A DNA stretch of 64,000 bases, taken from the NCBI GenBank assembly GCA_913058265.1, contig CAJXPQ010000005.1:62001-126000 (forward strand), written 5' to 3'. The notes under the pieces were generated by a model. That model had not been told where the DNA came from. It saw only the letters and a list, made by a program, of their open reading frames with translations, and did not search any database. The number at the start of each line of letters is the position of its first letter. Positions within the stretch are counted from its first letter, which is position 1. Position numbers and translations under genes: made by a program. Positions 28,124-46,899 of the stretch are shown here, piece by piece. This DNA is from an uncultured Oligoflexia bacterium (GTDB lineage Bacteria; Bdellovibrionota; Bacteriovoracia; Bacteriovoracales; Bacteriovoracaceae).

Positions 28124-31100
28124 TTAGTATCCCTTTGCTCTTTCCATAAAGTCATTAATACTACCCTGACGATCCTGGTAAAGAGTTATAAAAGCATCAT
28201 ATTGCTTTTTATCTATTTCACCAATCGCTATAACTAGTGTGTCTTTTTTGTTATCTAATTCTTCTATATCTTCAATGGTACCTTCTACTGCTAATTTAAT
28301 TCTCTTTCCATTATATTGAAGACTTACACTTGCGAAAACATCTGTTCCCTTAGTCAAGGAATTCTTAGGTGATAGAACAATAAGTTCATCTTCATAAAAA
28401 TCTTCAAAATCACACATAAAAGTAATTTCATTTCCTGCTTGAGTCTTTTGTTTAACAATAACTTTAAGTTCACCTGACTCTAAGTTTAAATCAGGCGGAG
28501 TCTCGCTCATAATCTTATCTAAACTTGGACCATTATCCGTAATATCATCGTCTAAATTACCAGTCGGGCCACCGTCTTTGATGTCATCGTTAGCTCGGGC
28601 CATTTTTTCATGAAACTCAGTTAATCCACCACCGAGAGCATCATCCATTTCGCTGGCAATTGATGCTGCCTTTGAAACCTCACTTTCTTTATTTTTTCCA
28701 TAAAGATTCTTTCCACTTTCAGTTTTATTTTTTGTATCGACTTGTTTTTTTTCTGTACTTTCTTTTCCTGGACTTTGCTTAGGTTTTTTGTCATCTAAGT
28801 AACTCATACCTTCAGCTGTAATTTTTGCTTCTCGCTCTTTTTGTTGCTTCTTTTTATCTCTCAAGCTGCGTAGTTCATCTGCCACTTCTTCTGCAGACTT
28901 AGCAGCATTGGCGAACTTCTCTGCTTTTTTACGCTTAATATCTTCTAGGTAGCCTGTATCACTCATTGCCCCTTGATCATTGGCAGTTTTAGTTAAATCA
29001 AGAGGATCACCACTTGCACCCTGCTTCTTCTGACCTGAATCTTCTTTAAAGGAATCAAATCCATCTTCGAAGGAATCCTCAGTAGGTTTTTTAAGTCTAT
29101 CGAAGGCAAGAGTTTCAGAGTTATCTACTTTTTCTTTTTTCTCTTTATTATCAATAATTTTATTTAATTCATCTTTCTCAAGGCCAGGTGGTTTCTTCTT
29201 ACCCATGCCATCGATGACATCGTAAGCGCTTAAATCGTCATCTGTATCCTCAAAACCTTCAGGAGCTTCAGGATCTAAAATGATACTATCTTCCTCGTCC
29301 TTAGACAGCTGTACAGGATCAAGAACTGGATTTCCTTGATCATCTAACTTCGGTGGCATAGGTTTTCCATCCGGACCTTCCTCACCTTCATAATGCTTTT
29401 GAAGAGATTCCTCTCTAAATTTATTTTTCTTAGGATCTGTATTTTTACGGCTATTTGCACTGTTTTTACCAGCAAGCGCCCCACCTAGATCATCTTTATT
29501 CGGTTTACCGGCTTGAGGATCTTCACCCATTTTATCTGTTGAAGATTTTCCATCAAGTGGGCCACCAAGATCATCTGTTCCAGCTTTACCAGAAAGTGGA
29601 TCTTCACCCATTTTATCTGTTGAAGATTTTCCAGCAAGTGGTCCACCAAGATCATCTGTTCCAGCTTTACCAGAAAGTGGATCGTCACCAAAGTGATCAG
29701 CTGCACTTCCTTTTCCGCCAAGAGGTCCCCCTAAATCATCAGAGCTACCCTTGCCACCAAGAGGATCTTTTCCATATTCGTCAGACTTGCTGTCTTTACC
29801 TGCTAGTGGGTCTTCACCAAGACGGTCAGCCGCACTTCCCTTTCCAGATAAAGCATCATCACCATAATGATCAGCTTCAGAGCCTTTTCCGTCATAGTGC
29901 TTTTTAATTCCTGCTTCGCTAAATTCATTATTAGAATCATCGTCTGATTCTTGCCTTTTATTTTTCGTCTTTCCAGATATTGGGCCACCATCTAAGTTAT
30001 CCGTTGAAGATTTTCCAGATAGTGGATCTTTTCCAAATTTGTCAGTCGAAGACTTCCCCGCAAATGGGTCATTTCCAAGTTGATCAGCAGCACTTCCCTC
30101 ACCACTGAGAGGGTCCTCACCCATCTTATCTGTTGAAGATTTTCCAGAAAGTGAATCAGCACCATATTGATCAGCGGCTCCACCCTTTCCAGATAATGGA
30201 TCTCCTGCAAGTTCTTCAGTAGATCCTTTTCCTTCCATATTTGACAAGTTATCAGTCTCACTATCTCCGGCCAGGTTCTCACCTTCGTCATTCTCTGTAG
30301 CATCACCTTCAATATTAAACTTACTATCGCAAGTTTTGAGAATCATTCCTTCCCGAGTCTTCGCAAAGACTGAGTTTTCACATAGTTTTACATGTCCACC
30401 CTCATACTTAAAACGTGAATATACAGTTCCATCTTGTGCATAGAAATATAGATGAGGTGCTTCTGATGGAAAAATCCAGCGATTAATTTTCCAATCGAAC
30501 TCTGGCTTATTTCCTTTAAAAAACCAAGAACCGTCATCACATACAAATGTCTTACTCTCTGGATTCTTTAGTAGGTATCTCCATGTTCCTGGCTGTGACT
30601 CAACCTCAACCCAACTTCCAATATATGGAGATGGACCTAGCATTCTTACAAGCCATCTTCTTAAAATTTTCTTATAATCTGTTTTGGCCTTAATTAGCCA
30701 GATATCACTTTCAAGTTCAAGAGGTTTCTGTAAAACAAAATCCTCTTTTTTCTCTGGTTGCAGAGCAGTCGCTTTTGCTTGCTTATCTTTCCTAGACTTA
30801 AGCTCTTCTTCCCTTTCCATTTTTGCAAGATGAGCAACAATTGGCTTAGACCAAAAATCAAGCTTAAAAGTTATAGTTTTGGCACGAGTCGTTGGCTCTA
30901 AAACATCCATACACCCATACTTGGCAAGTACTGATTCGACTTTTTTATTTGTTAAACCGCTAATACAAGCAGGCTTCAAAAGTCCTTTTTTTATTAATTT
31001 TTTCTGTGCCTTTAAAACCGTTACAGCATCTCGCATGTCCAATTTGTTTGTGACTTTAAAAAAGAAAATACCATTCCCCACGGACGAAATAAATTGGTTT

Positions 31101-31225
31101 ACCTCTGCAGCCGTATTGATTGTCTCCACATCAAACTTTGATGAGTCTTTGTAGAACGATTTTAAATCTCGAATTAATGCTATCGAGTCATCAAAACCAA
31201 AGAATATTAAACTTACCTTACTCAT
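28124..31225 (-). CDS. Large low-complexity repeat protein with receiver-like N-terminus and PilZ-like C-terminus
   Basis: The 1033-residue cytoplasmic protein has three parts. Residues 1-140 look like a degenerate receiver ('VSLIFFGFDDS', 'ACISGLTNKKVE', 'GCMDVLEPT'). Residues about 170-300 form a tryptophan-rich domain ('GSWVEVESQPGTWRYLL', 'DDGSWFFKG'). Residues about 330-620 hold some 17 repeats of 13-15 residues of the type GK-S-S-T-D-K-M-G-E-D-P-L-S, and an acidic charged linker follows. The last 115 residues ('GELKVIVKQKTQAG' to 'FMERAKGY') resemble a PilZ-type beta barrel, but the c-di-GMP motifs RxxxR and D/NxSxxG are not evident. It shares a transcript with the receiver-TPR gene. 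Confidence 0.7.
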   Translation of the reverse strand: MSKVSLIFFGFDDSIALIRDLKSFYKDSSKFDVETINTAAEVNQFISSVGNGIFFFKVTNKLDMRDAVTVLKAQKKLIKKGLLKPACISGLTNKKVESVLAKYGCMDVLEPTTRAKTITFKLDFWSKPIVAHLAKMEREEELKSRKDKQAKATALQPEKKEDFVLQKPLELESDIWLIKAKTDYKKILRRWLVRMLGPSPYIGSWVEVESQPGTWRYLLKNPESKTFVCDDGSWFFKGNKPEFDWKINRWIFPSEAPHLYFYAQDGTVYSRFKYEGGHVKLCENSVFAKTREGMILKTCDSKFNIEGDATENDEGENLAGDSETDNLSNMEGKGSTEELAGDPLSGKGGAADQYGADSLSGKSSTDKMGEDPLSGEGSAADQLGNDPFAGKSSTDKFGKDPLSGKSSTDNLDGGPISGKTKNKRQESDDDSNNEFSEAGIKKHYDGKGSEADHYGDDALSGKGSAADRLGEDPLAGKDSKSDEYGKDPLGGKGSSDDLGGPLGGKGSAADHFGDDPLSGKAGTDDLGGPLAGKSSTDKMGEDPLSGKAGTDDLGGPLDGKSSTDKMGEDPQAGKPNKDDLGGALAGKNSANSRKNTDPKKNKFREESLQKHYEGEEGPDGKPMPPKLDDQGNPVLDPVQLSKDEEDSIILDPEAPEGFEDTDDDLSAYDVIDGMGKKKPPGLEKDELNKIIDNKEKKEKVDNSETLAFDRLKKPTEDSFEDGFDSFKEDSGQKKQGASGDPLDLTKTANDQGAMSDTGYLEDIKRKKAEKFANAAKSAEEVADELRSLRDKKKQQKEREAKITAEGMSYLDDKKPKQSPGKESTEKKQVDTKNKTESGKNLYGKNKESEVSKAASIASEMDDALGGGLTEFHEKMARANDDIKDGGPTGNLDDDITDNGPSLDKIMSETPPDLNLESGELKVIVKQKTQAGNEITFMCDFEDFYEDELIVLSPKNSLTKGTDVFASVSLQYNGKRIKLAVEGTIEDIEELDNKKDTLVIAIGEIDKKQYDAFITLYQDRQGSINDFMERAKGY
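29440..30250 (-). repeat. Tandem 39-45-base coding repeats
   Basis: About 17 in-frame units encode G-K-x-S-x-x-D-x-x-G-x-D-P-L-x. Two alternate forms recur: 14-residue 'GKSSTDKMGEDPLS' and 13-residue 'GKAGTDDLGGPLA', which in part alternate as pairs. One interruption contains 'FSEAGIKKHYDG' and the array ends with a similar 'FREESLQKHYEG', as if a longer super-unit had been duplicated. The near identity of DNA between units points to recent expansion. Confidence 0.85.
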
Positions 31226-34527: not shown

Positions 34528-34603
34528 GACCTGATTATATCACCTATGTAAAATATTCGGAATCAGAATTATAAATTTGATTTCGGAATAAATAAGGTCT
34601 ATT

Positions 34604-35953
34604 GTGCTTCGCATGAGCAAGATAAAAATTAAGATACTTATTTGTGATGATGATAAATACTTCAGAATGGCGCTTAAAGAGCTGCTATCACCTCACGGAA
34701 TCGTTATTGAGGCAGACAGCGAGCTAAGTGCTCAAAAGCTAATAGAGTCCGAATACTTTGATTTAGCGCTTATAGATATGGACATTGACGGGCCACTATC
34801 AGGTATACAGATATTAAAATCATCCAAATCCAAAGGTATACACTCTATAATCCTTAGCTCACAAAGCGACGAGGGAATTATCGAAGAGGCCTACGAATCA
34901 GGCTGTGACCATTTCCTAGCAAAAGTTCACTACAGAACTCACCTTGAACCCTATATTCATAGTTATAAGAAAAACTACCTAACGAATGATATATCAACCT
35001 TCTTTTCTGAAAAGTACATAACTCAGGACGAAGAACTTAAGGCAAGTATTGAGAATTTATGTCGCATCAACTTAAAGAATAAAACAATCTTTATTACCGG
35101 AGAGACCGGGGTCGGTAAAAGTTTAATTGGTGAGCTTCTTCATTATCAAACATATGATAAAACGAAGCCTTTTGTTCACTTAAACTGCTCTGAGATACCA
35201 GAGAATCTTATTGAATCAGAGCTGTTTGGACACTTAAAGGGATCCTTCACAGGAGCTTCAAGCGATAAAGTTGGGAAGCTTGAACTCGCGAGGGGTGGGA
35301 CGCTATTTTTAGATGAAATAGGAACTATGCCTGCTAGTATGCAACAAAAAATTCTCAAGGCGCTTGATCAAAAAACGTTTTACCCTGTAGGTGCAAGTAA
35401 GCCTACTCGCTCTGAATTCACCTTGATAACAGCTACATGCGAAGACCTGTTCGAGAAAATTCACAAGGGTGAGTTTAGAAAGGACTTATTCTTCAGAGTA
35501 AGTGGATTAAACCTTGAAATAAAACCTTTAAGGCAAAGAGTAGACGATATCCCTCTACTCGTTAAACACTTTATAAAGCAATCACATAGACGATTTATTG
35601 TTAAAGACTCTGCCATCATCGCCTTTAAAAAGCATGAATGGAATGGAAATATAAGAGAGCTGAAAAAGCAGCTTGAAATACTCTCAACGAGCCAAAAAGG
35701 AATTGTCTCAGAAAGCGACATTCAGTTCACTAGACAATCCAAAGCACTAAGCGACCACTGGCTAACAACTGCACAAAGAGACTATATTGAAGAAAATGGG
35801 CTCAGATCATTTATTAAGAAGATCGAAGAAGAATCTATAAAAGACTCACTTGAACGAAACCAAGGCAAGATCACTGGTACAATCAAAGAGTTAGGTATCT
35901 CAGCTTCAGCATTCTACAGAATCTTTGATAATATAAAAGTAAACGCTCATTAA
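34604..35953 (+). CDS. Sigma-54-dependent response regulator (NtrC family)
   Basis: A 449-residue transcription activator. Its receiver domain (about 8-125) has the acidic pair in 'LICDDDKY', phospho-acceptor in 'LALIDMDIDG' and Lys in 'FLAKVHY'. The AAA+ domain (about 145-370) has Walker A 'GETGVGKS', the sigma-54 contact loop GSFTGA, Walker B 'GGTLFLDEIG' and the arginine region 'FRKDLFFRVSGL'. A Fis-type helix-turn-helix ends the protein ('GKITGTIKELGIS'). The start is GTG at 34604 with AAGG 6 bases upstream; an ATG three codons later is possible. No cognate kinase is adjacent. A sigma-54 promoter begins two bases after its stop. Confidence 0.93.
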   Translation: MLRMSKIKIKILICDDDKYFRMALKELLSPHGIVIEADSELSAQKLIESEYFDLALIDMDIDGPLSGIQILKSSKSKGIHSIILSSQSDEGIIEEAYESGCDHFLAKVHYRTHLEPYIHSYKKNYLTNDISTFFSEKYITQDEELKASIENLCRINLKNKTIFITGETGVGKSLIGELLHYQTYDKTKPFVHLNCSEIPENLIESELFGHLKGSFTGASSDKVGKLELARGGTLFLDEIGTMPASMQQKILKALDQKTFYPVGASKPTRSEFTLITATCEDLFEKIHKGEFRKDLFFRVSGLNLEIKPLRQRVDDIPLLVKHFIKQSHRRFIVKDSAIIAFKKHEWNGNIRELKKQLEILSTSQKGIVSESDIQFTRQSKALSDHWLTTAQRDYIEENGLRSFIKKIEEESIKDSLERNQGKITGTIKELGISASAFYRIFDNIKVNAH

Positions 35954-35955
35954 AG

Positions 35956-35972
35956 TTGGCATAACTCTTGCT
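35956..35972 (+). promoter_or_regulatory. Sigma-54 (-24/-12) promoter
   Basis: TTGGCATAACTCTTGCT matches the consensus TTGGCAC-N5-TTGCA with the invariant GG (35958-35959) and GC (35970-35971) exactly 10 bases apart. The predicted transcript starts near 35983, which leaves a 27-base leader with GAGGAG before the ATG at 36010. It lies two bases after the stop of a sigma-54 activator, which makes that protein the natural regulator. Confidence 0.85.
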
Positions 35973-36009
35973 CTACTCCTCTTCATAAAACATGAACGAG
36001 GAGAACGAC

Positions 36010-36351
36010 ATGACAACACTACAAGAAAGTATTTTAAATCAGTACAGAGAAACCTTCCCAAACGATAAGCTTAAAGATTATTGTGCAAAAACGGGAATTC
36101 AAATCACACGCATTCACAGAGTATTAAATGGTGCAGAGATGAAACTCTCAGAGTTTGAAGCCATTGAGAAAGCTATTCAAGGTGACGATCCCATCACAGA
36201 AGATTTTATCAAAACAGCATTCAAATGTATCAAAAAATTAAATTCAAAAAAAATCAGTGAATATAAGAATCAAATGAATCATGCACTAAAACTTGCAACA
36301 ATGACAGAGCTTCAAGTTCAACCTCAACTCTTTGAGATGAGACTAGCTTAG
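36010..36351 (+). CDS. Small protein with helix-turn-helix-like region, sigma-54 operon
   Basis: A 113-residue, mostly helical protein. The stretch 'DYCAKTGIQITRIHRVLNG' with 'MKLSEFEAIEKAI' resembles an XRE-type helix-turn-helix, so it may bind DNA, but the match is weak. I do not recognise a family. The start is set at 36010 because GAGGAG lies 6 bases before it and the predicted promoter would place the in-frame ATG at 35992 too near the transcript start. It is the first gene of the sigma-54-driven operon. Confidence 0.65.
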   Translation: MTTLQESILNQYRETFPNDKLKDYCAKTGIQITRIHRVLNGAEMKLSEFEAIEKAIQGDDPITEDFIKTAFKCIKKLNSKKISEYKNQMNHALKLATMTELQVQPQLFEMRLA

Positions 36352-36359
36352 GAGGCAAT

Positions 36360-36836
36360 ATGAACTATAATATAACCTTACCTGAACGAATGATTCTAGA
36401 GTCTCTAAGTAAAAAAAGTAAAGATCTACTAGAGCTTACAGATTGCACAGGACTTCAAGATAGGATCGTACAAAACATACTATCTGTCTTAGCAGCAAAG
36501 AATCTGATCGCTACTCATCATAACAAATATTGCATCAGTGAATATCTTAACTCAGACATGGTTAAGGAATTAAATGATCCTGAAAACAAAAAAATTGAAA
36601 TACAGTATGTTTTAAAATCGACATTGGATATGAAGCAGAAGGAAGCCTTTAATTATAAAAAAGTGTCTATGAACGATAGAGAAAAGAAAATATTTAATGG
36701 ACATATCTACAACCTTGAAGCCTTTATAGATAGTCTGGATAAAAACAAAAAAGATGAGCAATTAAAAAATCAAAACATTATATTCTGGGGAGAAGTAAAT
36801 TATGGAAAAGTTATTAATCATATGCTTAATTTTTAA
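36360..36836 (+). CDS. Unknown cytoplasmic protein with winged-helix-like N-terminus
   Basis: The first 65 of 158 residues ('LPERMILESLSKKSKDLLEL' to 'NKYCISEYL') read like a winged-helix domain: three helices with 'VQNILSVLAAKNLI' as recognition helix, then a short hairpin. The rest is lysine-rich and helical. No family is recognised. It follows the first gene by 8 bases with AGGAGG upstream and overlaps the lipoprotein gene by 35 bases, an unusually long overlap that ties their translation together. Confidence 0.6.
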   Translation: MNYNITLPERMILESLSKKSKDLLELTDCTGLQDRIVQNILSVLAAKNLIATHHNKYCISEYLNSDMVKELNDPENKKIEIQYVLKSTLDMKQKEAFNYKKVSMNDREKKIFNGHIYNLEAFIDSLDKNKKDEQLKNQNIIFWGEVNYGKVINHMLNF

Positions 36837-37440
36837 TATTATATCATGTGGAAAAGAAGAAACAGATAAGAAAAAGAAAACATCAACTCTACACTCAAAA
36901 GTATTAGGTGAAGTGGGATCAATTATGTCAAAGATTGAACTCGACTCTGACTTTTCTCAAAAAATATTCATTCCTAAACATAACTTCAAAAAGATGCATA
37001 TACTTAGTTCAGGTACCGTGACTTCCTTTGAACAAGCTGTAGATAAAATTACATTCTCCCTGGGTAGAGGTACTGCAAACTACAACTTAAGTTGTGTCAT
37101 AAACAAGTATACAATTCATGCCCAAAAGAAAGAGTCTCTTGAAGTTGCAAAACCCTCTAACTATTTTGACATTTACTTTAACCAACATCTTGCTAGCTTA
37201 GATACAATCATGATTGCATGGAATAAGGCACTTAGAGATAAAGGTGAAGTTGTAATGGTGACTTTAAAACTTAGAGAGAACTATCGTTTTAATCTTCGGA
37301 CTGGAATTGACTTTGTAAAGACGAATATATGCACTAAAAACAGTCGAAAAATAGGAACCCAAGTTTACAGAGACAATGACAAGCGAGTGATAAAACCAGC
37401 TCAGTTTGATGGAAACATAGCCGTAGAATTTGAATACTAG
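36802..37440 (+). CDS. Putative lipoprotein, last gene of the sigma-54 operon
   Basis: A 212-residue protein with a lipoprotein signal: 'LLIICLIFNIISCG' gives a lipobox with Cys16 (I-I-S-C). Residues 18-26 after it are charged, then a mature domain of about 185 residues with two further cysteines ('LSCVINKY', 'TNICTKN') follows. The function is unknown. It would be anchored in the periplasm or outer membrane and made only when the sigma-54 operon is on. It converges on psd and overlaps it by 4 bases. Confidence 0.65.
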   Translation: MEKLLIICLIFNIISCGKEETDKKKKTSTLHSKVLGEVGSIMSKIELDSDFSQKIFIPKHNFKKMHILSSGTVTSFEQAVDKITFSLGRGTANYNLSCVINKYTIHAQKKESLEVAKPSNYFDIYFNQHLASLDTIMIAWNKALRDKGEVVMVTLKLRENYRFNLRTGIDFVKTNICTKNSRKIGTQVYRDNDKRVIKPAQFDGNIAVEFEY

Positions 37441-46262: not shown

Positions 46263-46712
46263 CTATGCCGCCAAGCTCATACGAGGTTTTTTCCCACCAG
46301 GCCAACGGTTTACTGGTGATACTTTAATATCGATCATACTTGATACAGAGTAACAAAAGTAATCAATATCAACAGGTAGCTTTGCAAAGTTATAAAAGTT
46401 TCTTTTCATAACAGATGGATCATTAACAGAATCAAAGCTTGAAGCAATATAAAGATGAATATTTCCGGCCCTCATTAAGTACTTTAAAATTCTTGTTACT
46501 TTATTATGATAGTAAGACAGTTCACTTCTCGATTTGATAACGATAAGTACATGGATGGCTTTTCTCTTAGAAACGCATTCAAGTAGACCTTTTAAAGTTA
46601 TAGGTATTAGACTTTTATTTGATTTTTTAAACTGCTGATCAAGACGAATATACTCTCGTGGTAAATCTTTAGTTAACTTTAAATAAAAAATCCAGTGCTC
46701 ATTTGCTTCCAT
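46263..46712 (-). CDS. Unknown protein, first gene of a sigma-54 operon
   Basis: A 149-residue protein. The middle (about 50-125) has alternating strands and helices ('IHVLIVIKSRSEL', 'HLYIASSFDS', 'DIDYFCYSVSS') spaced like a degenerate receiver or small Rossmann domain. The C-terminus is basic, 'VNRWPGGKKPRMSLAA'. I do not recognise it. Transcription probably starts at the sigma-54 promoter about 170 bases upstream, so regulation by an NtrC-like activator is expected. Confidence 0.6.
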   Translation of the reverse strand: MEANEHWIFYLKLTKDLPREYIRLDQQFKKSNKSLIPITLKGLLECVSKRKAIHVLIVIKSRSELSYYHNKVTRILKYLMRAGNIHLYIASSFDSVNDPSVMKRNFYNFAKLPVDIDYFCYSVSSMIDIKVSPVNRWPGGKKPRMSLAA

Positions 46713-46882: not shown

Positions 46883-46899
46883 AGCAAGTGCTGTGCCAA
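46883..46899 (-). promoter_or_regulatory. Sigma-54 (-24/-12) promoter
   Basis: Read on the minus strand, TTTGGCACAGCACTTGCTC matches TTGGCAC-N5-TTGCA. GG (complement of 46896-46897) and GC (complement of 46884-46885) are exactly 10 bases apart. The transcript would start near 46872 and reach the gene at 46712 after a leader of about 160 bases. The 290 bases between 46713 and 47003 hold nothing else I can name, apart from a purine-rich stretch at 46749-46789. Confidence 0.8.

Follow-up and report, generated by a model that had tools for sequence, protein, structure and literature searches.

A putative NtrC/sigma-54 switch ahead of two predicted DNA-binding proteins, in two arrangements across the Bacteriovoracia

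The class Bacteriovoracia includes Bacteriovorax and Halobacteriovorax, which prey on other bacteria. Here, we propose that in this class an NtrC-type activator acting with sigma-54 probably switches on a second-tier regulator, a pair of proteins named here A and B, through a tandem-dyad enhancer, and that this circuit exists in two arrangements. The sequence support for this proposal covers gene order, promoter conservation, the dyads, ntrC orthology and fold predictions. The window (the whole stretch of 64,000 nucleotides analyzed, G000:C5:62001-126000) belongs to a 3.23-Mb genome, and it was compared with relatives to give 87 distinct genomes: the window itself, 48 from whole-genome searches and 38 from named records, counted after removal of 15 duplicates. 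Relatives of A and B were sought with a closer subset of each alignment, the full A and B alignments having too few conserved stretches. Nearly every named record with gene A is labeled Bacteriovoracaceae, Halobacteriovoraceae, Bacteriovorax or the like, which places the window genome in the class Bacteriovoracia.

Results

A conserved sigma-54 promoter precedes genes A and B

A -24/-12 promoter, TGGCATAACTCTTGCT, occupies positions 35957-35972 (+ strand), with GG at 35958-35959, ten bases, and GC at 35970-35971. The preliminary description of this DNA had placed such an element, with exact GG-N10-GC spacing, two bases after the stop of an activator gene, and indeed only the two bases AG separate the ntrC stop from the TTGGCA of the promoter. 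Transcription of the operon is predicted to start near 35983. Two properties of the genome are relevant here: it contains the strict consensus TGGCAYN5TTGCW at 22 sites, versus 2 for a reversed-pattern control, and rpoN is present as a single gene (G000:C15:8259).

With the threshold set so that no more than 1% of 1000 shuffles of the region upstream of A scored as high, we detected a -24/-12 element ahead of gene A in 81 of the 87 genomes, far above shuffled controls and in most cases 36-60 bases ahead of the nominal start of A; one of these, L090, has a poor core (GGACACTAAATTTGCA) and is included by score only. No qualifying element was found upstream of A in the other six (L058, L083, L085, L089, L137 and L141). 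Homologues lying apart from any sigma-54 promoter had been named in advance as evidence against the module, and this conservation speaks in its favor. We therefore assign the element as a sigma-54 promoter on its GG-N10-GC geometry within TGGCAY-N5-TTGCW, on its conservation ahead of the gene and on the presence of rpoN in the genome. The promoter has outlasted great divergence of the A and B proteins, which mostly share 20-40% identity among relatives, so that we regard it as a firm entry into the sigma-54 regulon. Among family genomes at least 90% complete, rpoN (sought by its sigma-54 DNA-binding domain) was not detected in G025 and G050, two Bacteriovoracia genomes of 90-95% completeness in which A and B are missing too, while G002, G009 and G049 carry rpoN, yet miss A and B; this small sample is consistent with rpoN and A/B having been lost together.

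Other sigma-54 sites were observed in the same genome. A second perfect consensus lies in the window at 46883-46898 (- strand), 170 bases before a gene for a 149-aa protein (46263-46712). By eye, many of the 22 genomic sites (L174-L195) precede exported proteins and lipoproteins, including an exported protein that resembles phospholipase D (L188) and exported proteins, L182 and L189, that are rich in repeats and look alike. These sites would fit an envelope-related regulon, and nothing ties A and B to them. Elsewhere in the window, positions 28124-31225 (- strand) encode a protein of 1033 aa whose middle part holds many GEDPLSGKSSTDKLG-type repeats, nearly identical to one another.

The activator gene encodes an orphan NtrC-type response regulator

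The open reading frame of ntrC spans 34604-35953 (+ strand) from a GTG at 34604; alignment with relatives makes the ATG at 34613 the more likely translation start (34613-35953). Pfam recognizes a receiver domain (REC), a Sigma54_activat domain and, weakly, a Fis helix-turn-helix (HTH). The phospho-acceptor aspartate, acidic pocket and lysine of the receiver are all present, as are the Walker A and B motifs, the arginine fingers and the GAFTGA-type loop of the AAA+ domain, and all are conserved in 54 relatives; the loop reads GSFTGA in the window genome and GAFTGA in most relatives. These domains and residues agree with the earlier identification of an NtrC-type response regulator. As the residues for phosphorylation and for sigma-54 contact are conserved, the protein should receive phosphate from some kinase, which is no obvious neighbor: by eye, no histidine kinase gene is seen between 31 and 41 kb of the window, in line with the earlier remark that none is adjacent. 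Each NCBIfam equivalog model shown (NtrC, ZraR, NorR and others) stays far below its cut-off, the best among them scoring 246 bits against a cut-off of 650. DNA folding of the region upstream of ntrC is unremarkable.

NtrC, ZraR, FlrC and LuxO are NtrC-family bacterial enhancer-binding proteins with sigma-54 targets. The circuit described here resembles these systems in the receiver, AAA+ and Fis HTH domains, the GAFTGA loop (GSFTGA here), the -24/-12 promoter and tandem dyad sites two helical turns apart. It differs from them in that the window activator is an orphan without adjacent kinase and falls below every named NtrC-type equivalog cut-off shown, and in that, where ntrC is adjacent to A, the candidate enhancer precedes the gene of its own activator.

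Two gene arrangements exist across the class

In 35 of the 87 genomes, including that of the window, ntrC ends 2-70 bases before A, and in the remaining 52 it is not adjacent to A. A lipoprotein gene lies behind B in 29 of the 35 genomes versus 1 of the 52. The order activator, promoter and downstream genes had been proposed as something to look for in related genomes, and the same order does recur; however, neither "self-contained" nor "three-gene," as the module had been called, describes its general form, given the 52 genomes without an adjacent ntrC and the 57 of 87 in which no lipoprotein gene was found behind B (in a few of these the contig ends at or soon after B). In a tree of joined A and B proteins, nearly all ntrC-adjacent genomes fall within a single region, the exceptions being L046 and L067; the tree is midpoint rooted and its deep nodes are unreliable.

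In the second-form genomes examined, the best ntrC homologue is found elsewhere in the genome with 245-402 bits, mostly above 270, versus at most 201 bits for five fetched paralogues. Detached and adjacent genes group together in the ntrC tree, apart from the five paralogues, and the adjacent genes, L046 excepted, form a subclade with support 0.94. As support for the joint clade is only 0.49, the case for orthology comes chiefly from the gap in scores and from 35-45% full-length identity.

A tiny protein (60-86 aa) with an invariant histidine, mostly in an HD[LIF] motif, adjoins detached ntrC genes (L216:6436-6648, L217:6342-6530, L220:4685-4882, L221:4965-5180, L232:2943-3185, L233:6413-6673 and L230:1010-1192). 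A profile search added three copies (L214, L215 and L219) and found zero at ntrC-adjacent loci. The protein resembles an isolated histidine-kinase dimerization/phosphotransfer domain and is a candidate phosphodonor.

A and B are predicted DNA-binding proteins of undescribed families

Behind the promoter, the open reading frames 35992-36351, 36360-36836 and 36802-37440, the last two overlapping by 35 bases, lie where the preliminary description had put them. Gene A encodes a 113-aa XRE/Cro-like HTH protein (+ strand); a GAGGAG ribosome site and the starts of its homologues make the ATG at 36010 (36010-36351) more likely as its start than 35992. Gene B (36360-36836, + strand) encodes a 158-aa winged-helix protein. 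The model of A (pLDDT 85.7) is a helical bundle containing an HTH, with weak top Foldseek matches to XRE-type C (controller) proteins (E 0.057), and that of B (pLDDT 89.0) is a winged helix with additional helices, closest, again weakly, to MarR-type winged helices (E 7e-4). Sequence searches of Pfam, NCBIfam and the PDB returned no family for A, B or the lipoprotein C, and together with the predicted folds they bear out the first impression of unrecognized HTH-like, winged-helix-like and lipoprotein genes. Across the Bacteriovoracia, each genome has one clear A orthologue and one clear B orthologue, always adjacent, and at single-sequence sensitivity neither was found in other families of the phylum (0 of 38). 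Taken together, A and B are likely DNA-binding proteins of undescribed families.

Whether A and B represent a diverged, split form of a known regulator type is an evenly balanced question. By this account they would be a two-gene version of the DUF4423 (PF14394)/TIGR02147 regulators, with the N-terminal HTH in A, the winged helix and C-terminal domain in B, and the two acting as a heterodimer; such a reading would refine, and not oppose, the proposal that A and B are a second-tier regulator. DUF4423/TIGR02147 regulators are abundant in the phylum. In searches of 290 genomes of the phylum, the non-orthologous matches of the B profile were mostly proteins of 250-300 residues that match an in-house DUF4423/TIGR02147 model. 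Among the weak B-profile matches that we fetched outside the clear orthologues, this holds for 17 of 18 (one locus counts via a neighboring open reading frame as well), and the strongest A-profile match outside the orthologues (E 2.3e-4) falls on the N-terminus of a protein that matches DUF4423 at its C-terminus. In profile-profile comparison with DUF4423/TIGR02147, A reached 49-63% and B up to 40%, and a concatenated A-then-B aligned through both HTH regions at 76% versus 27% for B-then-A. The points of likeness to the DUF4423/TIGR02147 proteins of the Bdellovibrionota are a possibly shared order, HTH then winged helix, and the best non-orthologous profile matches.

Against it, no member of A or B reaches DUF4423/TIGR02147 in Pfam or NCBIfam, and with no match to the curated models we do not file the pair there; a direct TIGR02147 search of the window's own genome gave no match, its controls being equally silent. 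DUF4423 proteins also rank with the most frequent HTH proteins in these genomes, and in a test against 1,371 background open reading frames the AUC was 0.93 for the winged helix, 0.86 for A and 0.62 for the C-terminal half of B, this last value suggesting that general HTH likeness explains part of the resemblance. A and B further differ from the known regulators in being two genes instead of one, below Pfam/NCBIfam detection, with a C-terminal half that is not recognizably related. With the curated models silent and that half unlike, we treat the split regulator as a lead only. Bd3700, a DUF4423 protein of Bdellovibrio, is among the proteins up-regulated during growth in prey (PMC12546842), this being a different protein in a different genus.

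Tandem dyads form a candidate enhancer

Upstream of ntrC in the window lie two dyads 20 bp apart, ATTCGGAATCAGAAT (34555-34569), which matches ATTCGGA-N-TCCGAAT at 13 of 14 positions, and ATTTGATTTCGGAAT (34575-34589), whose counterpart in the alignment is the second of the two dyads conserved in relatives. In the whole genome only the first dyad matches the degenerate pattern ATTCSGANTCNGAAT exactly, and it is a likely NtrC-binding site, as upstream activating or autoregulatory sequence. More generally, the ntrC-adjacent form carries ATTCGGA-N-TCCGAAT directly before ntrC and, 20 bp further along, ATTTGAAATCCGAAT or a similar sequence. At a threshold of at least 11 of 14 positions, 26 of the 35 genomes have the dyad at this position with respect to ntrC versus an expected 0.16 per 4 kb, related genomes being taken as separate in this and the following dyad count. 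In the second form, phylogenetic footprinting revealed two dyads, TGTTCT-N6-AGAACA, 20-22 bp apart and located about -66 to -110 relative to the -24 element. Matches to 10 or more of the 12 positions occur in 21 of 46 second-form genomes versus about 0.7 expected from shuffles; Bacteriovorax sp. DB6_IX (L119) is a genome with dyads ahead of A. No TGTTCT-N6-AGAACA turned up close to the promoter in the ntrC-adjacent form, nor were the ntrC-side dyads found before detached ntrC genes.

Both dyad types have a TTC-N7/8-GAA core in common, suggesting that one protein family binds both, and NtrC is the best candidate because a SAFYRI-type helix is common to the two forms. The tandem dyads are therefore likely an NtrC enhancer. 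A rival assignment makes them operators for A/B, feeding back onto ntrC, or for the divergent gene nagB, and in most ntrC-adjacent genomes they do lie between nagB and ntrC, near both starts. We consider it unlikely: the position of the dyads is fixed relative to ntrC and is kept in L042, whose neighbor is not nagB; the recognition helix of A is nearly unchanged between the two forms, whereas dyad flanks and spacing differ; and the TTC...GAA core agrees with the SAFYRI-type helix of NtrC, which is similar in both.

Even with NtrC as the binder, about 1.4 kb separate the dyads of the ntrC-adjacent form from the promoter, a long distance for an enhancer. Closer extra copies, near the sigma-54 promoter and within the 3' part of ntrC, occur in only 2 of the 35 genomes (about 264-279 bases before gene A in L043 and 282 bases in L048). 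Considering this distance and the rarity of closer copies, the ntrC-side dyads may act on the promoter or could serve ntrC autoregulation only.

Gene C encodes a lipoprotein

Gene C (36802-37440, + strand) encodes a 212-aa protein with a signal peptide and the lipobox IISCGK. The family found behind B in ntrC-adjacent genomes consists of lipoproteins, mostly of 380-485 aa, or 414-475 aa by a narrower range, in which the signal peptide with lipobox was recognized by eye and the cysteine is invariant in the alignment; a DxDGD motif looks, by eye, like a calcium-binding repeat. The signal peptide and a weak C-terminal profile match (17.9 bits) hint that C of the window is a short, divergent member of this family.

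Discussion

In our model, the phosphorylated NtrC-type activator would bind the dedicated tandem-dyad enhancer and open the sigma-54 promoter, so that A and B are made, and the two proteins would jointly bind DNA as a single second-tier transcription regulator. In the branch that includes the window genome, ntrC stands directly before the promoter, the enhancer would lie ahead of ntrC and C would be co-transcribed; in the remaining genomes ntrC is elsewhere as far as examined, and the enhancer would lie 66-110 bp before the promoter. C may report on the envelope or feed back from it. As the sigma-54 switch is kept before A/B in almost every genome, the pair is probably the second step of an unstudied regulatory cascade. 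Sigma-54 cascades of this kind, with one activator turning on another regulator, are known, for example Rrp2-RpoN-RpoS of Borrelia and FlrA-FlrC of Vibrio. The proposed circuit shares their two-tier logic and differs in its second tier, which consists of two small HTH proteins whose families are undescribed.

We give a still lower probability than to the operator assignment of the dyads to an ordinary orphan sigma-54 operon with no second tier, in which A and B would have a structural or other joint role, for instance as chromatin proteins, and simply happen to have HTH folds. The weak structural matches of A and B would suit such an operon, as would the many other sigma-54 sites of the genome that precede exported proteins and lipoproteins. 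Against it, both proteins have predicted DNA-binding folds and, by eye, neither a catalytic signature nor a signal peptide, and the near-invariant residues of A (R34, R37, G41, M44 and E48) lie within or beside the HTH. A toxin-antitoxin pair was dropped, as A and B are chromosomal, single copy, class-wide and without a toxin fold, the HigB-like match being a lone one in 54 members. A functional link to the neighbors degP and psd was also set aside, since their orientation and order vary between branches.

As possible roles, the preliminary description had offered envelope sensing or a life-cycle switch. More broadly, one may imagine a class-wide, lineage-specific master switch of the Bacteriovoracia, in which an orphan NtrC, acting with sigma-54, activates a split HTH/winged-helix regulator of a phase of the predatory life cycle, the enhancer having moved before ntrC and an envelope lipoprotein having been added in one branch. 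This extension is doubtful as a whole; only the nature of the organism makes a link of A and B to the predatory cycle plausible. In the open-access literature searched we found no paper linking Halobacteriovorax to sigma-54, and Bacteriovorax appears together with RpoN in only two papers, in passing mentions. How Bacteriovorax-type predators control their genes has hardly been studied, and the single-copy A/B pair offers exact sites at which to study their regulon.
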